64,000 bases of DNA from a virus, in IMG/VR virus record IMGVR_UViG_3300042197_004918, positions 109,818-173,817 of that record; one strand, written 5' to 3'. Position 1 is the first letter of the stretch. Every line of letters starts with the position of its first letter. Below, in pieces: positions 16,403-45,063 of this stretch. Both the position numbers and the translations under genes were made by a program. Under the pieces are notes generated by a model. That model worked only from the letters and a program-made list of their open reading frames with translations. It was not told where the DNA came from and did no database searches.

Positions 16403-16606
16403 TTTTTGATTTCGGGTGTATATGACACAACGAATTACGTATATTTGTGTCAAAATGTGGAATGGATTGGGCACGAAACTCCGAATTGCACTGACCAATC
16501 ACACTCGAATTTTGAATCTATGTTGGGGCACGGTAGGCTCCGATGTAAGTAGAGGTCGCGGGTGGTGCCCTCGGATGGGTTCAAGTCCCAGACCACCAAA
16601 TTTCAT
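16403..16606 (+). other. spacer with tRNA-like acceptor/T-arm fragment
   Basis: No ORF. At 16561-16597 GGTGGT pairs with ACCACC around GGG-TTCAAGT-CCC, i.e. an acceptor stem joined straight to a T-arm; GGGGCAC/GTGCCCT (16525-16571) is an alternative 7-bp pairing. Likely tRNA remnant. Confidence 0.4.
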
Positions 16607-17740: not shown

Positions 17741-17785
17741 AGTAGGCTTAGAAGCAGCCATCTTTAATCAGCGAATCGAAACGCT
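17741..17785 (+). ncRNA. 23S rRNA GTPase-centre-like element, copy 1
   Basis: 17745-17762 reads GGCTTAGAAGCAGCCATC, identical to the universally conserved helix 43 segment of 23S rRNA (E. coli ~1062-1079, thiostrepton loop with A1067). It is followed by TTTAA and a hairpin CAGCG-AATCGAAA-CGCTG where helix 44 would be. The rest of the rRNA is absent. Confidence 0.6.
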
Positions 17786-18058: not shown

Positions 18059-18100
18059 AGTAGGCTTAGAAGCAGCCATCTTTTAAAAAGTGACGAGTGG
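18059..18100 (+). ncRNA. 23S rRNA GTPase-centre-like element, copy 2
   Basis: The first 25 nt (18059-18083) are identical to copy 1 at 17741, including the 18-nt helix 43 match; sequence then diverges (TTTTAAAAAGTGACG). A CGTAAC stretch occurs 50 nt on (18131), where a helix-44-like loop might be. Confidence 0.55.
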
Positions 18101-20547: not shown

Positions 20548-20623
20548 GCGGATGTAGCTCAACTGGCAGAGCGCTTGCCTTCCAAGCAGGCTGTTGTGGG
20601 TTCAACTCCCATCATCCGCTCCA
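20548..20623 (+). tRNA. tRNA-Gly(TCC)
   Basis: Acceptor GCGGATG/CATCCGC, TAGCTCAACTGG D-arm, anticodon stem CTTGC/GCAGG with loop CTTCCAA, CCA encoded; its final A is the A of the next gene's ATG. Confidence 0.93.
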
Positions 20624-20790
20624 TGAATACTAATCAGAAACGAATTAAACACGAGGAGGATTACATAAACTTCCTCGAAAAACGTCTCGGTAGTATGAAT
20701 TTCAAAAGGAATTCTTCTCCGGAAGAAATTGAAAAAACTGAAGCAAAACTCAAGAAAGCAAAGTTGGTTTTGAGAGTTTTGAAGAAGTAA
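20623..20790 (+). CDS. small basic coiled-coil protein starting in tRNA CCA
   Basis: 55 residues (MNTNQKRIKHEEDYINFLEK...). Lys/Glu-rich helix. The ATG overlaps the CCA end of tRNA-Gly (CCATG), so there is no leader of its own. Function unknown. Confidence 0.6.
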   Translation: MNTNQKRIKHEEDYINFLEKRLGSMNFKRNSSPEEIEKTEAKLKKAKLVLRVLKK

Positions 20791-20793
20791 ATT

Positions 20794-20881
20794 GGACGGT
20801 TATCCCGTAGGGGTAGCGGTACGCGCTGTAAACGCGTTGCCTTAACAGGCTCGGGTGGTTCAACTCCATCACCGTCCACCA
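20794..20881 (+). tRNA. tRNA-Tyr(GTA), copy 2
   Basis: Acceptor GGACGGT/ACCGTCC, anticodon stem ACGCG/CGCGT with loop CTGTAAA, long variable arm, CCA encoded and shared with the ATG at 20881. Confidence 0.93.
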
Positions 20882-21018
20882 TGAAAAAAATAAATCGCCT
20901 AAACGAACCTAAGAAAGATAAAACAAAGGTGAGGGTTCCTCAATGGACTCTGGCACTGATGGTTGCTGGTGTGATAAGTAAGGATTCGGTCGTTGAGACA
21001 TTAAAACAATCAAAGTGA
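20881..21018 (+). CDS. small protein starting in tRNA CCA
   Basis: 45 residues (MKKINRLNEPKKDKTKVRV...): basic N-terminus then a hydrophobic helix LALMVAGVISKDSVVETL. Start codon is the last base of tRNA-Tyr plus TG. Unknown. Confidence 0.55.
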   Translation: MKKINRLNEPKKDKTKVRVPQWTLALMVAGVISKDSVVETLKQSK

Positions 21019-21038
21019 GACTTTATCTAAGTAGTGAC

Positions 21039-21045
21039 TATTTAT
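21039..21045 (+). promoter_or_regulatory. TATTTAT box, 4 nt before start codon
   Basis: Precedes the lipoprotein gene at 21050. Confidence 0.45.
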
Positions 21046-21049
21046 AGTT

Positions 21050-21619
21050 ATGAACAGATTCAAGTTTCTTTCGGTATTTCTTTTAACTTCGTTAATCCTC
21101 TTAACGTCGGTATTTTTTACTGGATGTGAGAACGGGTCCGCTCAAACATCGACAAAGTTACCGTCAGCTCCTTCAAAGGTTTATACAGCGGATGAGCTGC
21201 AAAATTTAATGTTTAAAAACGGTATAAACACCGGAACATTCTTACTTGCCGACAAAAACTACGTATTAACTACAAGGGAGTGGATTAGGTCTGACTTTTC
21301 CCGTGGTCTGACAGCATTTCAGTTTCAGATGGGGATAGACAAGTGGGTGGCTGAAACAAATGATTGTGATAAATTCGCCACTGCTGCGACATTTTATGCT
21401 AAGTGGCTGAGTCATTCATCCCCGAACAGAAATGTTAGAGCATCCCTCGCTTTTGGTGAACTGCACTATTCGAGGGAGAGTGACGGACGTGCCCACGCTA
21501 TAAATTTCTTCGTAGTTAATGAAGGGGAACTCAAACTCGTGTTCTATGAACCACAAAATCATAAAATCGTGAATTTGACCAAGGGTGAACAATTTAGTGT
21601 ATTCTTCTGGAGACTATGA
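21050..21619 (+). CDS. lipoprotein with transglutaminase/papain-like core
   Basis: 189 residues. Signal peptide with a run of Leu/Ser/Val and lipobox-like FFTGC (Cys26), so an envelope lipoprotein. The mature part holds ETNDCDKFATAA, GRAHAINFFV and FYEPQN, matching the Cys-His-(Gln/Asn) order of papain/transglutaminase-like folds. A cell-wall or envelope role during infection is inferred. Stop overlaps a second, tiny lipoprotein gene (ATGA). Confidence 0.75.
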   Translation: MNRFKFLSVFLLTSLILLTSVFFTGCENGSAQTSTKLPSAPSKVYTADELQNLMFKNGINTGTFLLADKNYVLTTREWIRSDFSRGLTAFQFQMGIDKWVAETNDCDKFATAATFYAKWLSHSSPNRNVRASLAFGELHYSRESDGRAHAINFFVVNEGELKLVFYEPQNHKIVNLTKGEQFSVFFWRL

Positions 21620-21738
21620 AAAAACTCATTTTAATAATCGTATTTTCGTCAGTATTGATGGCCTGTAAGACGGCCGACGTGTTTCCACCAAGGAACATCC
21701 CAAAGCCCCCTGTAGAGTTCTCTAGTATTGACAAATAA
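21616..21738 (+). CDS. 40-residue Pro-rich lipoprotein, possible outer-membrane spanin
   Basis: MKKLILIIVFSSVLMAC: a lipoprotein signal with lipobox VLMAC, then a mature peptide of 24 residues with four prolines in FPPRNIPKPP. Size, lipobox and Pro content are those of Rz1-type o-spanins. The partner i-spanin is not adjacent, so this remains a suggestion. The stop region contains the next promoter. Confidence 0.6.
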   Translation: MKKLILIIVFSSVLMACKTADVFPPRNIPKPPVEFSSIDK

Positions 21739-21755
21739 TCAATCTACTGTATAGT
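21728..21755 (+). promoter_or_regulatory. sigma70-type promoter, leaderless configuration
   Basis: TTGACA (21728-21733), 16-nt spacer, TATAGT (21750-21755), 6 nt to ATG 21762. The -35 box lies in the last codons of the lipoprotein gene. Confidence 0.75.
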
Positions 21756-21761
21756 GTTCTT

Positions 21762-22124
21762 ATGGATGAGAACGAAGTATTGAACGAGATTTTTGGTCAG
21801 ACGCCCTTGTGGAAGGGTAAATATAAAATCAAGTGGTGTGAACTGTGTCGGACTTCCATCATCGTGTGTGAAGAGTGTAAGAACAGTTCTTGTAACGGCG
21901 GCGGATGTAAGGAGTGTGACGAAGCATTTTCGTCCTTCGCTAAGGCCAAGACAACCATTGAAGAATATCTCACCGAAGAAGAAATATACGCATACCACAA
22001 AGCGATGTATTTGAAGGAGTTTATACAAACGTCACTCGGTAAGGGTGAAAATGAAATTGACTTTGAACGGATGAATAGAGACGGTGAACTTTCCGAAGTA
22101 ACGCGAAAGATGTTTTTGAAGTAA
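21762..22124 (+). CDS. Cys-cluster protein
   Basis: 120 residues. CELC ... CEECKNSSCNGGGCKEC (26-54) holds eight cysteines, enough for two zinc ions in a treble-clef or RING-like arrangement; the C-terminal half is helical and acidic. Unknown function. Followed by tRNA-Arg 6 nt after the stop. Confidence 0.65.
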   Translation: MDENEVLNEIFGQTPLWKGKYKIKWCELCRTSIIVCEECKNSSCNGGGCKECDEAFSSFAKAKTTIEEYLTEEEIYAYHKAMYLKEFIQTSLGKGENEIDFERMNRDGELSEVTRKMFLK

Positions 22125-22130
22125 TTTAAT

Positions 22131-22203
22131 GGGTCTATGGTGAAATTGGACATCATAGGAGTTTCCTAAACTTTTGTTTCCGGTTCGAGTCCGGATAGAC
22201 CTA
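22131..22203 (+). tRNA. tRNA-Arg(CCT)
   Basis: Acceptor GGGTCTA/TAGACCT, anticodon stem GGAGT/ACTTT with loop TTCCTAA, T-arm TCCGG-TTCGAGT-CCGGA. Tail A-CC-G. Confidence 0.85.
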
Positions 22204-22210
22204 CCGCGCG

Positions 22211-22294
22211 GGTTTCGGTTGGGTGCCCCAAAGGACGGGATTAACTCCGTCAGAGGCCCATGTGGTCGAGGGAGTTGATTGAAACCAACTCCAA
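22211..22294 (+). ncRNA. tRNA-like structured RNA
   Basis: GGTTTCG can pair with TGAAACC (22279-22285); inside are GACGG-GATTAACT-CCGTC (8-nt loop) and, partly exclusive, GGAGTTG-ATTGAAAC-CAACTCC. No T-arm. Possibly a decayed tRNA. Confidence 0.3.
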
Positions 22295-22308
22295 ACCGTT
22301 TTAATTTT

Positions 22309-22506
22309 ATGAACATGGATCGTATGTTAGATGAAGGTGGTTACACCTTAGACGAAGAGTTATTTATAGCAAATCACTCTTCCATAGAAATATGCGAACT
22401 GTGTGGTGACTATTTTGCTATTCATCCCGACTACTGTTATGTCGGACGCAATAATTTCGTAGAATTGACCTTTGGAGGACGATTCTACTGTCAGAAGTGT
22501 AAGTAA
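22309..22506 (+). CDS. small zinc-ribbon protein
   Basis: 65 residues (MNMDRMLDEGGYTLDEELF...). CELCGDYF ... FYCQKCK forms a CxxC/CxxC zinc site separated by ~30 residues. Sits between tRNA-Arg and tRNA-Ser. Unknown. Confidence 0.6.
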   Translation: MNMDRMLDEGGYTLDEELFIANHSSIEICELCGDYFAIHPDYCYVGRNNFVELTFGGRFYCQKCK

Positions 22507-22508
22507 TT

Positions 22509-22599
22509 GGATGGTAAACCCGAAAGGTTTGGGAACTGCCTCGAAAACAGATTGCTGGGCTTAAAACCCAGTGGGCTTCGATTGCTCTGCCATCCGCCA
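22509..22599 (+). tRNA. tRNA-Ser(CGA)
   Basis: Acceptor GGATGGT/GCCATCC with G73, anticodon loop CTCGAAA, variable-arm hairpin CTGGG-CTTAAAA-CCCAG typical of Ser, CCA encoded. The anticodon stem is imperfect. Confidence 0.85.
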
Positions 22600-22602
22600 G
22601 AT

Positions 22603-22869
22603 ATGGAAACAATAAGATTGTGTGCTCGAGTAGTGGACAACGGCGATAAATCCGTTAATTTAGTTGACTTGCTCGTTGGGTCAAAATTGACAAAGAGCAA
22701 ACGAGAGGCGAGAGATTTAATCTCTTCGGGTGGAGCTTACATAAACGGCGTCCGAACCACTGAAAATAGAGATATATCTACGGATGATTTGATTGGTGAT
22801 GAAATAGTTCTCCGTAAAGGTAAAAAAACACATTTTGTTCTAAAGTTCTTAAATATAAGAGGTAAGTAA
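22603..22869 (+). CDS. stand-alone S4 RNA-binding domain (TyrRS C-terminus-like)
   Basis: 88 residues from ATG 22603; upstream in-frame sequence is tRNA-Ser. VNLVDLLVGSKLTKSKREARDLISSGGAYINGVRT is the S4 fold with the KSKREARDLI helix, followed by ILRKGKKTHFVLKF-like C-terminal strands as in bacterial tyrosyl-tRNA synthetases. Only the tRNA-binding domain is present, no catalytic core. Two tRNA-Tyr genes occur in the same island, so binding to phage or host tRNA-Tyr is a reasonable inference; S4 domains also bind rRNA. Confidence 0.85.
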   Translation: METIRLCARVVDNGDKSVNLVDLLVGSKLTKSKREARDLISSGGAYINGVRTTENRDISTDDLIGDEIVLRKGKKTHFVLKFLNIRGK

Positions 22870-22889
22870 AACCGATAGGTTTGGTCATT

Positions 22890-22977
22890 GGAATGCAAAA
22901 CCTCAAGGCGAGGTCGGTGATTGGAAATCACCTGGACGCCCTAAACCAGCGTTGAGATTCGAGTTCTCTACATTCCG
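22890..22977 (+). tRNA. tRNA-Ser(GGA), CCA not encoded
   Basis: Acceptor GGAATG/CATTCC, anticodon stem GGTGA/TCACC with loop TTGGAAA, long variable arm, G73 as in Ser, then CAG. Most of it overlaps an antisense endonuclease gene. Confidence 0.85.
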
Positions 22978-23637
22978 CAGTATTATTTCCAGATATTTTT
23001 CTGAAGTTCTGTCGTTGAAGTGTTTTTGGTCAGAAATATCTATGACTACTAACTTGATGCTGTTTTCCAAACAAGATTTAACTTTCTTTTTATCATTCTT
23101 GACGGTGGAAACCAGTTTATCTTTTCCAAAAATCGGTTTATAATGAAAAATACCGTTCAATTCAAAAGCCAATCTCAAAGAGGGAATATAAATATCCAAC
23201 TCGGAGTTTATGTCTTTTCTCTGATTAAATCTAATCTCTAATGTTGGAAAAGTTTTTTTAAGTTTCTCTTCCAAATATTTTTCAAGTTTAGATCTCCTAC
23301 AACCACACGATTTTCTAACAAAATGTTCATTATTATACTTTGCTGCACAAGAATTTGAACAGAATTGATTTCCGGTTTTTGACCTCTTAATGAGAGAATT
23401 CTTTCTATAAAAAGAAAGGTCACACACTTTACACTTCACGATTTTTCCTTTATTTAGAGCAACATTTCTACAATCCGTTCCACAGTATTTTAAAATTTTC
23501 CTATATCCACATTTCTCCGACCATTTGATGTCGTTTTTCTTTCCGTAAAATTGGGCATGGCAATTTTCACATTCCAACTTTAATTTTTCCGTGGATTTGG
23601 CAGAAGAAAATTCCTCATCCGTGTAAAGCTTAATCAT
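22903..23637 (-). CDS. EDxHD/Vsr-like homing endonuclease, antisense to tRNA-Ser
   Basis: 244 residues from ATG 23637. N-terminal zinc fingers (CENCHAQF, KYCGTDC, CKVCDLSF, CSNSC) for DNA binding; the nuclease core ELDIYIPSLRLAFELNGIFHY ... IKLVVIDISD matches the PD-(D/E)xK/EDxHD family related to Vsr and I-Bth0305I. The C-terminal ~25 residues (for example LGRPGDFQSPTSP) and the stop lie within tRNA-Ser(GGA). TATTTAT box 4 nt before the start. Confidence 0.82.
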   Translation of the reverse strand: MIKLYTDEEFSSAKSTEKLKLECENCHAQFYGKKNDIKWSEKCGYRKILKYCGTDCRNVALNKGKIVKCKVCDLSFYRKNSLIKRSKTGNQFCSNSCAAKYNNEHFVRKSCGCRRSKLEKYLEEKLKKTFPTLEIRFNQRKDINSELDIYIPSLRLAFELNGIFHYKPIFGKDKLVSTVKNDKKKVKSCLENSIKLVVIDISDQKHFNDRTSEKYLEIILRNVENSNLNAGLGRPGDFQSPTSP

Positions 23638-23641
23638 GTTA

Positions 23642-23648
23642 ATAAATA
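23642..23648 (-). promoter_or_regulatory. TATTTAT box of the EDxHD gene
   Basis: Minus-strand TATTTAT, 4 nt before ATG 23637. Confidence 0.45.
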
Positions 23649-23683
23649 TCAAGGAATTTTCCGAAAACACGGCTTACCGCCTG

Positions 23684-23902
23684 CTACTTCATTATGGAAA
23701 CCATGTAGTCGCCAGTCAAAGATGGGGTGTAATAACTATTCGTATTTCCACGTTTCTCATATAATGGAATGAAAGTGTTTCCGTCTTTATCAGTGTAACC
23801 TTTCCTTACAAGTCTGTAATATTCTTTATTGACTTGGACGTTGTATGGGTCTGAACATGAGACAAACAATAGGGTGGTGAGGACCAAAAAAATCTTTTTC
23901 AT
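23684..23902 (-). CDS. small lipoprotein
   Basis: 72 residues. MKKIFLVLTTLLFVSC is a classic lipoprotein signal with lipobox LFVSC (Cys16). The mature part is polar and Tyr-rich with no recognised domain. Envelope-located; could act in superinfection exclusion or lysis, which is only inferred. Confidence 0.75.
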   Translation of the reverse strand: MKKIFLVLTTLLFVSCSDPYNVQVNKEYYRLVRKGYTDKDGNTFIPLYEKRGNTNSYYTPSLTGDYMVSIMK

Positions 23903-23907
23903 CAAAA

Positions 23908-23914
23908 ATAAATA
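23908..23914 (-). promoter_or_regulatory. TATTTAT box of the lipoprotein gene
   Basis: Minus-strand TATTTAT, 5 nt before ATG 23902; lies back to back with the box at 23936. Confidence 0.45.
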
Positions 23915-23935
23915 TCTCGTTATGATTCTAACACA

Positions 23936-23942
23936 TATTTAT
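23936..23942 (+). promoter_or_regulatory. TATTTAT box, 4 nt before GTG
   Basis: Precedes GTG 23947; divergent from the minus-strand box at 23908. Confidence 0.45.
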
Positions 23943-23946
23943 AAAC

Positions 23947-24198
23947 GTGGAAGATAAAGACATCAAACAATTAGGTGTATATCTCGACTTGTGTGGAGAA
24001 CGTGAGTTTTTATTAAGTGCGGTCTGGTTATCTTTCAGATACAAGGAAATTCATCCAGAGTGGAACGTCAATCAGTGTTTTGAACAAGCAATTTGGGATG
24101 TTATGGTGAGTGAAGCCAAGCGTGAAACTAAACTCGATTTAAGGTCAACTGTGGAGAAGATAAACCAAATCCAAAGCTTGTGTTCCACCAAAAAGTAG
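23947..24198 (+). CDS. hypothetical protein
   Basis: 83 residues, GTG start fixed by the TATTTAT box. Helical and acidic (GEREFLLSAVWLSFRYKEIHPEWN). No family recognised. Confidence 0.6.
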   Translation: MEDKDIKQLGVYLDLCGEREFLLSAVWLSFRYKEIHPEWNVNQCFEQAIWDVMVSEAKRETKLDLRSTVEKINQIQSLCSTKK

Positions 24199-24199
24199 G

Positions 24200-24228
24200 T
24201 TGACAAGTATTATAATTACACGTATGAT
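24200..24228 (+). promoter_or_regulatory. sigma70-type promoter, leaderless configuration
   Basis: TTGACA (24200-24205), 17-nt spacer, TATGAT (24223-24228), 6 nt to GTG 24235. The position of the promoter fixes the GTG start. Confidence 0.75.
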
Positions 24229-24234
24229 CTCTAC

Positions 24235-24741
24235 GTGCAGACATTTCTACCATACTCGGATTTTTCAAAATCAGCAAATTGTTTAGATGACCGCCGGCTT
24301 GGAAAGCAGAGAGTAGAGGGTTATCAAATTCTAAAATCTCTAAGCATCGGCCCGTATCAACGTTTCCACAAAGATGCTTGGGTAGCTTGTGACGAGAGAA
24401 CGTATAATTCGTTAAAATCATTGAAAGTCAAGAAGTTGGTTAGAAAAACTCCTTGGTATAATCATCCAGCCACAAAAATGTGGGCGGGGTCTGAGGGTTC
24501 TCTAAAAGAATACACAGTTACCGTATGTTCAGTTTGGACCAGCCGTGGATTCAAGGATACGATTACCGATAAACTCAATAGTGTCCCGAATTCTTCTATA
24601 AAGAGTAAAACTCCAAGTTGGATTGGCGATGAGTCGTTCCACGCTGCCCATCGTTCTAATTTGTTAAGAAAAAACAAAGTATGGTATTCTAAGTTTAATT
24701 GGAAAGAATCGGACGATTTACCTTATGTCTGGCCAAAGTAA
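24235..24741 (+). CDS. pyrimidine dimer DNA glycosylase/endonuclease V-like
   Basis: 168 residues. MQTFLPYSDFSKSANCLDDRRLGKQRVEG at the N-terminus, HPATKMW and a C-terminal PSWIGDESFHAAHRSNLLRK fit the Pyr_excise (T4 endonuclease V-related, MSMEG_6728-like) family, with the N-terminal residue and Arg/Glu groups as catalytic site. Members remove UV-induced dimers, though this larger subfamily is poorly tested. GTG start. Confidence 0.8.
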   Translation: MQTFLPYSDFSKSANCLDDRRLGKQRVEGYQILKSLSIGPYQRFHKDAWVACDERTYNSLKSLKVKKLVRKTPWYNHPATKMWAGSEGSLKEYTVTVCSVWTSRGFKDTITDKLNSVPNSSIKSKTPSWIGDESFHAAHRSNLLRKNKVWYSKFNWKESDDLPYVWPK

Positions 24742-24814
24742 GATTCTGAAAGAAAAGGCTAGACGAAACGGATTTCAGTGGTATAGTTATTTTGTAGTGA
24801 GAATGGTTCCGTAG
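24725..24814 (+). CDS. possible 29-residue peptide
   Basis: MSGQSKILKEKARRNGFQWY and nine more residues; overlaps the preceding gene's end and ends inside tRNA-Cys. Basic; may be chance. Confidence 0.25.
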   Translation: MSGQSKILKEKARRNGFQWYSYFVVRMVP

Positions 24815-24884
24815 CCAAGATGAAATAAGGCGTCTGTTCCGCAAGGACAGAAAATCGGTGGTTTAATTCCATCCGGGACCTCCA
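24805..24884 (+). tRNA. tRNA-Cys(GCA) with C33
   Basis: Acceptor GGTTCCG/CGGGACC, U73 (T) as in Cys tRNAs, CCA encoded. Anticodon stem CTGTT/GACAG with loop CCGCAAG puts GCA at 34-36 and C at 33. If the stem is extended the loop becomes CGCAA. Confidence 0.65.
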
Positions 24885-24887
24885 GTC

Positions 24888-24962
24888 GGGCAGGTCGTCT
24901 AGTGCTTAGGATATTCCCCTTCGCGGGGAAAGACGAAGGTTCAAATCCTTCCCTGCCCACCA
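24888..24962 (+). tRNA. tRNA, probable Arg(TCG)
   Basis: Acceptor GGGCAGG/CCTGCCC, anticodon stem TTCCC/GGGAA with loop CTTCGCG, T-arm GAAGG-TTCAAAT-CCTTC, CCA encoded. The D-arm GTCGTCTAG looks Glu-like, so identity is less certain than the fold. Confidence 0.75.
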
Positions 24963-24999
24963 GTATATGAAAACAAAACTGTAGAATTGTAAAGAAGTC

Positions 25000-25224
25000 G
25001 TGTTTCACTTCAACAAGGGTCACCTGGCCAATCCAGAGATTCCTATGTGGGTGTTAAAAACAAAAGGCGAAAGCTACTATGTGAATCACGTCACCGCGAG
25101 TTGTTCTTGGACAACCAAGGAAACTCCCGACAATCCTACAACCAAAGGTTCTTTGAAGTTTAAGAACGTGGATGTGGAAATCAGTGAAGATAGAGAAGCG
25201 ACAATTTTTGCGTCTGTAGTTTAA
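25000..25224 (+). CDS. conserved-looking small phage protein
   Basis: 74 residues, GTG start. Segments NPEIPMWVLKTKGESYYVNHV and TTKGSLKFKNVDVEI look beta-rich and conserved-type. The stop lies inside the next tRNA. Function unknown. Confidence 0.65.
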   Translation: MFHFNKGHLANPEIPMWVLKTKGESYYVNHVTASCSWTTKETPDNPTTKGSLKFKNVDVEISEDREATIFASVV

Positions 25225-25284
25225 TGGTCAGAACTGGCGCCTCTAAAACGCCGTGTGTGGGTTCGACTCCCATTGGACGCACCA
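25210..25284 (+). tRNA. candidate amber suppressor tRNA (CTA)
   Basis: Acceptor GCGTCTG/TGGACGC, D-arm GTTT-AATGGTCAG-AAC, anticodon stem GGCGC/ACGCC (C-A mismatch at the loop) with loop CTCTAAA, T-arm GTGGG-TTCGACT-CCCAT, CCA encoded. With T33 the anticodon reads CTA, which decodes UAG. If the loop is shifted by one it would read TCT (Arg), but that breaks the stem. Confidence 0.65.
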
Positions 25285-25526
25285 TGTTTGAAAAAATTAA
25301 CGAACTGTTTAGTGCTTTGGAGAAAGAGTTCCCATATTCAACTATGGGAGTAGATTTTAAGGGACGCCATGCCATAACGAGGGAGAGAGATGGAGTATTA
25401 GTTGTCTCTGTTTGGTCCAAGGGTTCAGTCTATCCAATAGGCGTTGACCCTAAAGATTTTGAAGATATTAACAAGTTTGTGGCCGATTCGAGAGTGATAG
25501 TGGATGGATGGAAGAAATCTGGTTGA
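25284..25526 (+). CDS. hypothetical protein starting in tRNA CCA
   Basis: 80 residues (MFEKINELFSALEKEFPYST...). The A of its ATG is the last base of the CCA of the CTA tRNA. Beta-rich middle (HAITRERDGVLVVSVWSKG). No family recognised; the stop overlaps the promoter of the large RNA. Confidence 0.65.
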   Translation: MFEKINELFSALEKEFPYSTMGVDFKGRHAITRERDGVLVVSVWSKGSVYPIGVDPKDFEDINKFVADSRVIVDGWKKSG

Positions 25527-25556: not shown

Positions 25557-26540
25557 AAGGTTAGTTGAGTGAACACGAAAGACCTTAGATTAAAAACTCA
25601 ACTGTATGATTGATACACAAATTAATCCGTTTACTGGTGACGATAGTGCGGTAAGACCGATGTGGGGTTGATTTAATCCACGTAGTTTTGAGGTGACTTA
25701 TCATCCTCACGTTTTGTTGATTGTTCTTTGTAAGTAGAATTTGGGAGGCCTGACTCCCTTCAAGATAAACCGTCGTAAGACGGCTAAAGCAGAAACCCCC
25801 TAACGGGACTGCGCCACAGTAATGTGGACACTCAGGCAACTGACGAATCAGTGTCTTTCACTCAAAAGGTGGAAGTATGTCTGAAGCTGGATTGGTAAAT
25901 GGTGATTGAGGGTAACACTGTAAATCATCTACTAACGGTACCGCCGAGCACTACTAATTCCTAACGGAACAGCCAAGAATAAGATTCAAGTCAAACGTAT
26001 AGATACAAGTCCGCAAGCAAGTGTTTATATGTAGAATGATAGAGAGTGGCCCAGGGTAACCGAGGACATAATCTTGAAATTCGGTGAAGTATCCGCAAGA
26101 GAAACACAAATGGTGTGTGGTATATTGGTTCCCAAAAGGAATTGATGTCACAAGCAACGCACGTCATTGTTAGGTGCATATTATATCATTGTTAGATAAA
26201 CTATATACAAAAAAGCCAAGTCGTTGCTTGTGTTCGTCGAAAAGAACGTAACTCTGAGGCCGTAAGGTAACTCAGACAACGAAGCGCTCGCAAGGTGTTA
26301 GTTGTTGATCCGAGTTTGGACGTGGTCCGCAAGACCTAATTGCTCGCAAGGCAACCGTTTGAATAGAGGTTGATTAGATGGACATTAAAGATGAAAAGCC
26401 GCATCTCTAAAAAGGCCGTTCTGTCAAATACAGACATAAACCGTAAGGTTGTGGATGTGGATACGTTGGGAAAGCAGCCCGCAAGGTTGTAATAATCCAA
26501 TCAAAGGTTGACACGAAACACTGTAGTCTCAGGTTTCATT
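25557..26540 (+). ncRNA. giant ornate RNA (GOLLD/ROOL-like candidate)
   Basis: About 980 nt with no ORF of note, own promoter, between tRNAs. Many helices can be read directly: AGTTGAGT/ACTCAACT at the 5' end, CCGTC-GTAA-GACGG, CCAC-AGTAAT-GTGG, an 11-bp perfect helix CACAAGCAACG/CGTTGCTTGTG (26149 and 26222), GGTC-CGCAA-GACC, AACC-GTAA-GGTT and several more capped by GCAA or GTAA. Size, ornate folding and place in a phage tRNA array are the known features of the GOLLD and ROOL RNA classes, which form large RNA multimers; class membership is not shown here. Confidence 0.6.
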
Positions 26541-26824: not shown

Positions 26825-27193
26825 ATGGAAACCGACTTAAAGGGAATTGTAAAAGAATTTGGTGTATTTATAGTCAAGAAATTGTCTATCACCAAACCGT
26901 TTAAGATAGAGTTGACGAACAACCGGGAAGGTCTTAAAACCTATGCTTATTACGACCCAAAGACCGGATTGGTTAGGGTGTATAAAGGAAATCGTTCCAA
27001 AGCAGATATTCTCCGTTCCATTGCACACGAGATGGTTCACCACCAACAGAACCAAAATGGTAAGCTCACACAAGACCCCAAAAATCCTATTCCCGACATC
27101 GGCGGCGAAATCGAAGACGAGGCCAATGCAGTTGCTGGTCAGTTAATCAAAGAATTCAGTTACGCTCACGAAGATTTCAAGTTGTATGATTAA
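26825..27193 (+). CDS. small zincin metallopeptidase
   Basis: 122 residues. SIAHEMVHHQQ (67-77) is a full HExxH zinc site, and EIEDEANAVAGQLIKEF downstream supplies the third acidic ligand; the layout is like SprT/IrrE-type or phage virion zincins. The N-terminus (METDLKGIVKEFGVFIV) has an [ILV]-x-E leader pattern like the packaged-protein candidates. Overlaps the next gene by 8 nt and shares its TATTTAT promoter, so the two may be co-packaged or act together. Confidence 0.8.
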   Translation: METDLKGIVKEFGVFIVKKLSITKPFKIELTNNREGLKTYAYYDPKTGLVRVYKGNRSKADILRSIAHEMVHHQQNQNGKLTQDPKNPIPDIGGEIEDEANAVAGQLIKEFSYAHEDFKLYD

Positions 27194-30126: not shown

Positions 30127-30330
30127 ATGAAAAGTGAATCCTCGTGGGAAGACCACAAGCCAGAAGGAAGAAATTTCAAAAACAAAGACGTAGATGTGCG
30201 TGGATATTCCCCTAAATACGACGCATACTATAATGTGAAGACGGGAGAATGGTTTGAAGAAAATTGTGGACACGAAGACTGTGAGTTTTGTAAAGATAGG
30301 CCGGAAAAACACATAAGGCCAAAGGCTTGA
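30127..30330 (+). CDS. small Cys/His protein
   Basis: 67 residues, hydrophilic. CGHEDCEFCK near the C-terminus may bind zinc. The stop codon TGA lies within the next promoter's -35 box. Unknown function. Confidence 0.6.
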   Translation: MKSESSWEDHKPEGRNFKNKDVDVRGYSPKYDAYYNVKTGEWFEENCGHEDCEFCKDRPEKHIRPKA

Positions 30331-30355
30331 CACTTTTGGACTTTTGTCCTATAGT
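30327..30355 (+). promoter_or_regulatory. promoter of the NAD+ synthesis operon
   Basis: TTGACA (30327-30332), 17-nt spacer, TATAGT (30350-30355): near-consensus. Unlike the other promoters it leaves a ~67-nt leader. Confidence 0.8.
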
Positions 30356-30368
30356 TATTCTCAGACAG

Positions 30369-30394
30369 TAAATCCTGATTTTGATAAGGGTTTA
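30369..30394 (+). promoter_or_regulatory. leader hairpin upstream of NMNAT-Nudix
   Basis: TAAATCC - TGATTTTGATAA - GGGTTTA. The apical part CC-TGATTT-T-GAT...GGG recurs in the leader of nadV at 31430. Confidence 0.5.
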
Positions 30395-30428
30395 GCAGTC
30401 AGAAAACATAACAGATTAAGATACGATT

Positions 30429-31400
30429 ATGAAAGAAAAACAAGCAGATGTTACAGCGTGCGGCGTAATAGTCGCCAGATTCCAACTCCACGAACTCCAC
30501 GATGCTCATCGTGATTTAATCCAAAGCGTCATTGATAGACACGAACGGGTTATTATCTTCTTGGGACTTTCGCCCCTAAAAAATACCGTCAACAATCCCC
30601 TTGAATTCAAACAACGCAAGGCGATGATTGAAGAAGAATTTAAGGGTTGCACCAAAAACATCGAAATTCACTACGTTGACGATAATCGTGACGACCACGT
30701 TTGGTCGAAGAATCTCGACAAACAATTGGCCAAGTGGTTGAACCCCGGACAGAAGGCAACTCTTTATGGCAGTCGGGACAGTTTTCTAAAGTGCTACCAC
30801 GGAAAGTATCCGGTCTGTGAACTCGAATCGGATTATTTCGTTTCGGCCACTGACATTCGGAAGAAAATCATCAACAATTATCCGCCAACGAAGGATTTTC
30901 GTGCTGGTCTGATTGCTGCTACCGGGTTGAAATACCCGACAGCATTTCAAACAGTGGACGTGGCCGTGGTGAACGATAAAGGTGAAATTCTCCTCGTCAA
31001 AAAGCCCGGAGAAGCGCAATGGAGATTCATTGGTGGATTCAGCGACCCCCGTAGTTTGAGTTTGGAAGAGGATGCTCGCCGAGAGATTCACGAAGAAACG
31101 GGAGTTGCTACTGGAGACCCGATTTATCTCGGAAGCACTCTCATTGATGACTGGAGATATAGACGGGAAACGGACAAAATTAAGACCGCTTTCTTTGTCA
31201 CAAAATATCTCTATGGGGCACCTCAAGGCGCTGATGATGTTGAGGTTGCTGGGTGGGTTAATCTCGCTGACCTCGTTAAAAACCAGAACATTGTTCCGGA
31301 ACACACGGTTTTGCTCAAAATGTTAATTGATAAATATTTGGGCAACGTTGAACTGTATAAGAAATTCAACGAACGTATGGCCGACGGATTAATGCCTTGA
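30429..31400 (+). CDS. bifunctional NMN adenylyltransferase / Nudix hydrolase
   Basis: 323 residues. N-terminal NMNAT: VIVARFQLHELHDAH (13-27) with the HxxH site, and VSATDIRKK (138-146) as the ISSxxxR motif; makes NAD+ from NMN and ATP. C-terminal Nudix domain: box from Gly203 to Gly225 with REIHEETG, expected to hydrolyse ADP-ribose or similar. The same fusion is known from cyanobacteria and from Vibrio phage KVP40 (NatV). Together with NadV it forms the nicotinamide-to-NAD+ route described as NARP2, used by phages to restore NAD+ emptied by host defences. Confidence 0.95.
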   Translation: MKEKQADVTACGVIVARFQLHELHDAHRDLIQSVIDRHERVIIFLGLSPLKNTVNNPLEFKQRKAMIEEEFKGCTKNIEIHYVDDNRDDHVWSKNLDKQLAKWLNPGQKATLYGSRDSFLKCYHGKYPVCELESDYFVSATDIRKKIINNYPPTKDFRAGLIAATGLKYPTAFQTVDVAVVNDKGEILLVKKPGEAQWRFIGGFSDPRSLSLEEDARREIHEETGVATGDPIYLGSTLIDDWRYRRETDKIKTAFFVTKYLYGAPQGADDVEVAGWVNLADLVKNQNIVPEHTVLLKMLIDKYLGNVELYKKFNERMADGLMP

Positions 31401-37706: not shown

Positions 37707-38158
37707 AAACAGACTTAGCTTTATACATCTTGATGAGAAACGACTTGGCCAGCATGAATGCAGGCCGTTGTATGGCACAGGCCTCTCATGCTTCAAACGC
37801 ATTTATTCACAGATTCGGAAAAAACTCCACCGTGAAGGAGTGGCAGAAACAGACCAATCAGGGATTCGGCACCGCGATTGTTTTGTCGGCTGACGAATTT
37901 CAGATTCGGTTGACCAACCAAAAACTTTTCGAGGCTGGTTTCGCGATTCGAGACTATTTGATTGACCCCGAATACTCTTACATTGTTCAAGATGAATTCA
38001 TTGAACTTATTGCTGAAGATAAACACGTTCTGGAACCAGTCCGCAAGGATGATGGAACGTGGATTGCATGGAGAAAAGAGATGACCTGTTTCTACGCATT
38101 TGGTGACAGAAACAATCCCGTGTTCAAGGAACAATTCTCTGGATTAAAACTCTTTTAG
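37703..38158 (+). CDS. peptidyl-tRNA hydrolase, Pth2 family
   Basis: 151 residues. LYILMRNDLASMNAGRCMAQASHASNAF (7-34) matches the N-terminal signature of Pth2 (DL-x-M-x2-GK-x-AAQxxHA), with variable C-terminal strands. Pth2 frees tRNAs trapped as peptidyl-tRNA, useful in a phage that supplies its own tRNAs. The conserved Lys of the GK pair is Arg here. Archaeal/eukaryotic-type Pth2 is uncommon in bacteria but known in large phages. Confidence 0.8.
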   Translation: MKTDLALYILMRNDLASMNAGRCMAQASHASNAFIHRFGKNSTVKEWQKQTNQGFGTAIVLSADEFQIRLTNQKLFEAGFAIRDYLIDPEYSYIVQDEFIELIAEDKHVLEPVRKDDGTWIAWRKEMTCFYAFGDRNNPVFKEQFSGLKLF

Positions 38159-43632: not shown

Positions 43633-45063
43633 ATGTTAATGAAAGATTTATTGTTGGAAGGTATAAAGGAAACCGCTGCGTTGGATTATCTGACGCAGTT
43701 GGTTAAATCTGGCCCATTTAAGGGCAGGGTGTTCCTCGCGGGCGGAGCTGTCCGAGACATGGAACTCGGCAAAGACCCAAAGGATTTAGATGTAGTTGTC
43801 ACCGGAGGAATTGAAGCTGGGATGGAGTTTGCACGATGGGCGACTCGTCAGATGGGGAACTATAAAACGGATTCAAATCCCGTCGTCTTTCCACAATACG
43901 GAACCGCGAAGTTCACTTTACAGGGAATTACCCACAACGGAATTGATTTGAGTGATATAGACATCGAAGCTGTTGCTACCAGAAAAGAAAAATACTCTGA
44001 TGGCAGTCGTAAACCGGAGGTGACTTCTGGCGACTTGGCCGATGACGTAAATCGTAGAGATTTCACGGTCAACAGTCTATTGAAAGACTTGACCACGGGT
44101 GAAATTCTGGATTTGACCGGCAAGGGTAAAGACGACATCCGTAAGGGTATAGTTCAGACTCCCCTTAATCCAGACATAATCTTCACGGAAGACCCGCTTA
44201 GGATTTTGAGGGCCGCTAGATTTGCTATCAAATACGATTGGGATTTGCCATTGTTCATGGTGAGGGCCATGAAACGCAATTCCGCGAAGCTGAAAAACAT
44301 CAGTTTTGAAAGAATCAGAGACGAACTTGATAAGATGTTGCTGACCGGTTCTCCACACCGAGCCATCAAACTTTTGAAAATTACAGGTGTCTTGGAATAC
44401 GTTGTTCCTGAATTTAAGGCAGCCTACAAGATGACCCAAAACATACACCATAAGCACGACGTGTTTGCACATTCTATGGATGTATTAAGTAAAACCAAGC
44501 CTGTTCTTGTTCAACGGTTGATGGGACTTTTCCACGACATCGGTAAAACGGTGACTCGTAGCGTAACTCCTACGGGTGTTCATTTCTATGGCCACGAATA
44601 CGAGGGTGCCAAGATGGTTGCTGAGATAATGAAGAGGATGAAATACCCAAATGAGCTTATTAAGCAAGTTGTCCTTGGAGTCAACAGCCACATGAGGCTC
44701 AAATCTGGTGGACCGGATTCCTTTAAGTTAAGCGATAAGGCTTTGAGAAAGTTCAAGGTTGAGATGGGTGACGAAATAGAGAACATTTTGGATGTTATCC
44801 ACGCCGACAATATCAGTCACAGTGAGGCATCTAGTATGCCGGCTCAAATAGATAATATCAGAGAAAGGTTGTCTAACCTGTCAATCACAGCTGAGAAGCC
44901 AAAACTTCCGATAACCGGTGAGGATTTAAAACTAGCAGGAATTAAGCCAGGACCAATTTACTCTGAAATAATGAGTGCGGTCTTGGAGAAGTGGTATGAG
45001 AATCCGTCTATATCCAAAGAGGAGGCTTTGAACATCGCTAGAGAACTTTCCAAGAAAGTTTAA
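43633..45063 (+). CDS. CCA-adding enzyme / poly(A) polymerase family, with HD domain
   Basis: 476 residues. LAGGAVRDMELGKDPKDLDVVVTG (35-58) with D51-x-D53 metal pair, RRDFTVNSL, EDPLRILRAARFAIKY and SFERIRDELDKML are the head and neck motifs of class II CCA enzymes. HHKHDVFAHSMDVL ... LFHDIGK is a C-terminal HD phosphohydrolase domain as in E. coli-type enzymes. Completes or repairs tRNA 3' CCA ends; about nine tRNAs in the window lack a full encoded CCA. The start MLMKDLLLEGIKE carries an LLE site like the packaged-protein leaders, so the enzyme might even be injected. Confidence 0.92.
   Translation: MLMKDLLLEGIKETAALDYLTQLVKSGPFKGRVFLAGGAVRDMELGKDPKDLDVVVTGGIEAGMEFARWATRQMGNYKTDSNPVVFPQYGTAKFTLQGITHNGIDLSDIDIEAVATRKEKYSDGSRKPEVTSGDLADDVNRRDFTVNSLLKDLTTGEILDLTGKGKDDIRKGIVQTPLNPDIIFTEDPLRILRAARFAIKYDWDLPLFMVRAMKRNSAKLKNISFERIRDELDKMLLTGSPHRAIKLLKITGVLEYVVPEFKAAYKMTQNIHHKHDVFAHSMDVLSKTKPVLVQRLMGLFHDIGKTVTRSVTPTGVHFYGHEYEGAKMVAEIMKRMKYPNELIKQVVLGVNSHMRLKSGGPDSFKLSDKALRKFKVEMGDEIENILDVIHADNISHSEASSMPAQIDNIRERLSNLSITAEKPKLPITGEDLKLAGIKPGPIYSEIMSAVLEKWYENPSISKEEALNIARELSKKV

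Follow-up and report, generated by a model that had tools for sequence, protein, structure and literature searches.

Three small open reading frames (ORFs) in the tRNA island of a large phage begin on the very base that ends an encoded tRNA, and this arrangement is best read as tRNA punctuation in a leaderless-translating virus, in which tRNA 3′ processing would free near-leaderless mRNAs; we put the probability of this reading at about 50%. The window analysed is a stretch of 64,000 nucleotides (nt), bases 109,818-173,817 of the 173.8-kb IMG/VR record IMGVR_UViG_3300042197_004918 (designated G000), which carries tail-sheath, tape-measure, DNA polymerase and ribonucleotide reductase genes. Within it, ARAGORN places the CCA ends of tRNA-Gly(TCC), tRNA-Tyr(GTA) and tRNA-CTA at 20623, 20881 and 25284, and the last A of each CCA is the A of the ATG of ORF1, ORF2 and ORF3 (55, 45 and 80 codons), respectively. 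A sequence-only reading of the window had claimed this shared A at three CCATG sites, and the tRNA ends and ORF coordinates bear it out. The observation is real and is part of a wider arrangement. The six elements are:

20548-20623, plus strand: tRNA-Gly(TCC) with encoded CCA, its last A opening the ORF1 ATG (ARAGORN; Rfam RF00005, 66.9 bits)
20623-20790, plus strand: ORF1, a small, charged, conserved protein of 55 amino acids (KHEEDYxxFLEKRL...; homologues in relatives G002 and G011; codon usage)
20794-20881, plus strand: tRNA-Tyr(GTA) copy 2, starting 3 nt past the ORF1 stop, its last A opening the ORF2 ATG (ARAGORN)
20881-21018, plus strand: ORF2, 45 amino acids (weak homologue in G002; codon usage)
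25210-25284, plus strand: tRNA-CTA, amber-reading, overlapped by genes at both ends, its last A opening the ORF3 ATG (ARAGORN, Rfam)
25284-25526, plus strand: ORF3, 80 amino acids, without detected homologue (codon usage)

The occurrence of CCATG at tRNA ends is unremarkable in itself, as about 1.5 cases are expected by chance among 24 tRNAs (1/16 each). A long ORF at all three CCATG ends, however, is not expected by chance: of the ATGs in non-coding island sequence, 7% open at least 45 codons, 6% at least 55 and 1.4% at least 80. Among the CCATG tRNA ends of other IMG/VR viruses (n = 92), 18% open at least 45 codons, a lower share than random ATGs do, and across IMG/VR and GTDB genomes such ends are mostly without a long ORF, although CCATG does open genes for a dNMP kinase (L051) and an HNH protein (L034). 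In codon usage, all three ORFs resemble this phage's genes; ORF1 and ORF3 score above all 221 of its out-of-frame (shadow) ORFs, and ORF2 is exceeded by only 0.9% of them. The sequence-only reading had proposed that small genes are controlled here by tRNA cutting. Of this proposal the genes themselves stand, since they look real and are placed exactly at the processing point, so that their expression should be influenced by 3′ cleavage; the specific switch is not supported. A tRNA CCA that shares its A with a start codon was not found reported in the literature searched, a partial collection.

A fourth gene also abuts a tRNA in the island, beginning 3 nt past its CCA:

22508-22599, plus strand: tRNA with a long variable arm and encoded CCA (22597-22599), unseen by ARAGORN (Rfam match 22508-22596, 37.3 bits, E = 1.1e-4); assigned by eye as tRNA-Ser(CGA)
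22603-22869, plus strand: S4-domain protein of 88 amino acids, like the C-terminal domain of tyrosyl-tRNA synthetase (Pfam PF22421, 2.7e-15)

This stand-alone S4 domain, which resembles the tRNA-binding domain of tyrosyl-tRNA synthetase, shares the island with two tRNA-Tyr genes.

The phage makes little use of Shine-Dalgarno (SD) sites, with SD-like sequences before 9 of 134 long ORFs (0.07 versus 0.03 in a control stretch). Instead, the motif TTGACA-N16/18-TANNNT ends 6 nt before the ATG in a sharp peak (15 genes, versus about one at each other offset). Transcription should therefore start on the A of the ATG or close to it, giving leaderless genes. Actinobacterial leaderless promoters likewise place TANNNT some 6 nt ahead of the ATG. 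The same peak was seen in the relatives G010 and G011 and, slightly further from the ATG, in G001; it was not found in G017, G019, G022 or the 735-kb phage LR756501 (W01). Among the start contexts of 221 genes, 115 lie beside an upstream stop (a start within -30 to +25 nt of that stop), 36 have a leaderless-type promoter, 4 have an SD site alone and 66 are unexplained. Inspection of the sequence before ORF1, ORF2 and ORF3 revealed no SD site, no TANNNT box and no stop near enough for coupling; at the place of these elements, each has a tRNA 3′ end.

Related records (G001, G002, G003, G004, G010 and G011) were found via the phage's tRNA nucleotidyltransferase, which is 90% identical in G001, 76% in G004, 68% in G002 and G003, and 64-65% in G010 and G011; the nearest record in an annotated phage collection, LR756501, shares 51% identity. 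Homologues of ORF1 were identified in G002 (57% over 35 amino acids) and G011 (72% over 40 amino acids), aligned from Met1 and differing mostly at third codon positions. The partner and offset of this gene change between phages, from tRNA-Gly(TCC) at -1 here to tRNA-Leu(TAG) at +4 in G002 and tRNA-Leu(GAG) at +6 in G011. That ORF1 immediately follows a tRNA in all three phages, each time a different one, is a point in favour of tRNA punctuation. ORF2 has a weak homologue in G002 (44% over 25 amino acids, E = 0.005) that begins 1 or 4 nt past tRNA-Arg(CCT). In G002 and G003 (analysed as the pieces L165 and L166), tRNA-CTA is present and ORF3 is not behind it, the very case that the sequence-only reading had named as refuting its model. 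Conservation of CCATG, which it had asked to be checked, was likewise not seen: the exact shared A is not kept, and homologues begin 1-6 nt behind other tRNAs. Pairing of a given tRNA with a given overlapping ORF is thus not conserved, with partners and offsets differing in G002 and G011 and ORF3 gone from G002 and G003, which favours a general rule of placement over a specific switch. Scans of IMG/VR returned no close-relative matches for ORF1, ORF3, the S4 gene or the gene at 27186, and a search for an ORF3 homologue in phages gave no real match.

What recurs in the lineage is a start codon lying -1 to +7 nt from the tRNA 3′ end, while the shared A and the partners vary. Measured from A76 of the tRNA, the offsets in G000, G002, G010 and G011 fall in this range: -1 for the three ORFs here and for a Sir2 gene in G002, +1, +3, +4 and +4 for others in G002, and mostly 4-7 in G010 and G011. 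The Sir2 gene (Pfam 1.1e-48) opens at the CCATG of tRNA-Arg(TCT), and this start is supported because its PHROG profile alignment runs from residue 5 to residue 5. G002 places a DprA-like gene 3 nt past one tRNA and the Sir2 gene on the CCA of another (L165 7596-8144 and 11371-12111). Across the six nearest records, 20 of 141 tRNAs have an ATG opening at least 45 codons no more than 10 nt from the discriminator, where 6.2 are expected from random intervals, and none of 200,000 simulated runs reached 20; starts 11-30 nt from the discriminator were found for 7 of the 141. Five other records showed 5 of 128 tRNAs at up to 10 nt and 32 of 128 at 11-30 nt (Fisher p = 0.005 and 3e-6 against the six nearest), a comparison that gives support rather than proof, the grouping of records having been chosen after the data were seen. 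The SD-using G017 spaces its genes mostly 13-27 nt behind tRNAs, with AGGAG-like motifs. A simple link by which lack of SD sites gives abutting starts was rejected, as LR756501 and G019 are also without SD sites and show a spacing of about 8-20 nt.

Under tRNA punctuation, the tRNAs and the small genes would be co-transcribed, and RNase P together with a tRNA 3′ endonuclease would excise the tRNAs, the 3′ cut presumably falling at the discriminator or within the CCA. Such a cut would leave an mRNA whose AUG lies at most a few nt from the new 5′ end (CAUG for a cut between the Cs), and these near-leaderless mRNAs would be translated like the other SD-less, leaderless genes of the phage. The CCATG overlap would be the closest-packed case of a rule whereby a start behind a tRNA sits where a leaderless promoter would put it. 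The nucleotidyltransferase would finally restore CCA on the cut tRNA:

43633-45063, plus strand: CCA-adding-type tRNA nucleotidyltransferase (Pfam PolyA_pol 1.2e-19, PolyA_pol_RNAbd 9.3e-16, HD)

Its best NCBIfam model is CCA tRNA nucleotidyltransferase, below the cut-off of that model. In 9 of 25 phage tRNAs, CAG, CCG or CCT stands in place of CCA, and these tRNAs need CCA addition because CCA is not encoded. With the predicted enzyme, a CCA lost wholly or partly to cleavage in front of it or inside it could be rebuilt. It had been argued from the sequence that the mature tRNA end and the start codon cannot both come from one transcript molecule. With a predicted nucleotidyltransferase and tRNAs that lack CCA this need not hold: the conflict is avoidable because CCA can be re-added, and arises only if the CCA has to come from the transcript.

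Several observations weigh against tRNA punctuation, in addition to the post hoc grouping of records. The close relatives G001 and G004 have no abutting starts (0 of 25 tRNAs), though other regions were sampled there, and some of the short ORFs in the relatives' totals may not be genuine genes. The genome is compact overall, as the 115 starts beside a stop attest, and tight packing is not special to tRNAs. The overlap itself appears not to be selected for, because most of the relatives' starts lie after the CCA. No gene of the RNase Z family (tRNase Z) was found in the phage, whose record is incomplete, and a host enzyme would therefore be needed. An encoded CCA impedes tRNase Z in several bacteria, or 3′ cleavage there takes place beyond the CCA, which would cost the AUG its A; E. 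coli RNase BN reportedly leaves CCA on the tRNA. A 3′ enzyme of that kind would deprive the three overlapping ORFs of their A but spare the ORFs at +1 to +7. The sole weak RNase Z match, below the cut-off, was rejected as an Apyc1-type metallo-β-lactamase (MBL) protein; this Apyc1 homologue, an anti-Pycsar phosphodiesterase, lies at L004:17883-18737 (record base 37883; Pfam 2.9e-31).

The main rival is plain compaction, a possibility to be taken seriously, in which the CCA supplies the A much as TAATG or ATGA overlaps do and the usual SD-less initiation acts on mixed transcripts, with no role for tRNA processing. Starts beside stops, the 3 nt between ORF1 and tRNA-Tyr, upstream genes that also run into tRNAs, varying offsets and changing tRNA partners are all consistent with it. 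However, on uncut RNA a folded tRNA that ends 3 nt before an AUG should keep the 30S subunit from loading, spacing behind tRNAs is wider in the SD-using G017, and across records abutting starts track leaderless promoters. A switch, the competition model of the sequence-only reading, is unlikely. Here a cut after the CCA would give the tRNA and destroy the AUG, and another cut or none would give the protein, so that each gene reads out the maturation of its own tRNA; at three places the outcome does hang on the cut site through the shared A, but one molecule can yield both tRNA and mRNA if CCA is re-added, the pairing is not conserved, and the A is not shared in most homologues. Least probable of all is that the ORFs are not genes or are translated from another start or promoter, for although the ORF1 and ORF3 frames open into the tRNA and ORF3 has no homologue and a poor single-sequence AlphaFold model (pLDDT 43), codon usage is gene-like, ORF1 homologues align from Met1 with mostly third-position changes, and no in-frame start with an SD site or promoter was seen.

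The arrangement resembles that of animal mitochondria, where protein genes lie flush against tRNAs, mRNA ends are created when RNase P and RNase Z cut the tRNAs out, the mRNAs have little or no leader, and CCA is added later. Here too protein genes adjoin tRNAs, with offsets of -1 to +7 nt in G000, G002, G010 and G011, and CCA could be supplied post-transcriptionally, as predicted from the nucleotidyltransferase domains and the CCA-less tRNAs. In contrast to mitochondria, this is a phage whose tRNAs mostly encode CCA, in which a minority of genes abut tRNAs and many have their own promoters, and where processing is proposed. A closer parallel for the cut comes from the portions consulted of two reports on actinobacteria: in Streptomyces coelicolor the majority of tRNAs with an encoded CCA are cleaved between the two Cs, with nucleotidyltransferase repair proposed, and in Propionibacterium acnes such cuts also occur, with repair presumed; both reports also describe leaderless mRNAs (PMC4681348, PMC3848588). 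A cut inside the CCA with presumed repair would likewise free a CAUG mRNA here. In those portions the cut sites are not tied to a downstream start codon, and these bacteria may not belong to this phage's host group; WhiB, sought as a marker of an actinobacterial host, is absent from the phage. Bacterial leaderless mRNAs have an AUG at or near the 5′ end and no SD site (reviewed in PMC9031893), and the phage is alike in lacking SD sites and in carrying TANNNT about 6 nt before the ATG of genes other than ORF1, ORF2 and ORF3. Unlike promoter-made leaderless mRNAs, those of the three ORFs would owe their 5′ end to tRNA processing. Huge phages are known for tRNA arrays, CCA-adding enzymes and few SD sites (PMC7162821); LR756501, one of these, differs in that it shows no leaderless-promoter peak and no genes that adjoin tRNAs closely.

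More tentatively, and at somewhat short of even odds, this would be a bacterial virus that obtains leaderless mRNAs for small genes by excising the tRNAs it encodes, a task in which a phage-encoded RNase P RNA and CCA-adding enzyme may take part: punctuation outside organelles, with the start set by a cut at or in the CCA. If so, the many tRNAs of large phages would gain an additional function, marking where polycistronic RNA is cut to yield leaderless mRNAs, the expression of genes without SD sites and promoters would become testable, and CCA repair and gene expression would be predicted to be linked in these phages.

A sharper conflict lies on the 5′ side of tRNA-CTA, where an upstream gene ends inside the tRNA:

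25000-25224, plus strand: gene of 74 amino acids with a GTG start and its TAA stop (25222-25224) within tRNA-CTA; 68% identity in L165 and L166
18764-19006, plus strand: probable RNase P RNA encoded by the phage in the same island, flanked by tRNA-Glu and a protein gene (Rfam RNaseP_arch)

The TAA forms positions 13-15 of the tRNA, the overlap is kept in G002 and G003, and further genes end inside tRNAs in G002. An RNase P cut would remove this stop and give a nonstop mRNA. The probable RNase P RNA matches RNaseP_arch at 34 bits (E = 2.5e-8 to 3e-9), below the gathering threshold of 84; the match spans the whole model, and the universal core motifs GAGGAA and ACAGAA are present. A second probable RNase P RNA was identified in the relative G022 (30306-30535, minus strand). 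The literature collection searched held no report of a phage-encoded RNase P RNA. An amber-reading CTA tRNA was also called in G001, G002, G003, G011 and LR756501, and TAG is retained as a rare stop in this phage (17 of 237 ORFs) despite the CTA tRNA.

Three further features were observed. A weak tmRNA-like match (16459-16598, plus strand; 13.4 bits, E = 0.02) is probably due to chance. A GOLLD RNA (211 bits; 26108-26535, plus strand) lies just 5′ of two tRNA-Ser genes and is also found in G002 and G003. The sequence GGCTTAGAAGCAGCCATC, which we take to match exactly the 23S rRNA loop of the GTPase centre that binds L11, is present twice in the window (17745-17762 and 18063-18080, plus strand; 0 expected), each time shortly past a tRNA or tRNA remnant, as well as in G002 past tRNA-Pro(TGG) (L165 9077-9094) and in 72 IMG/VR contigs.

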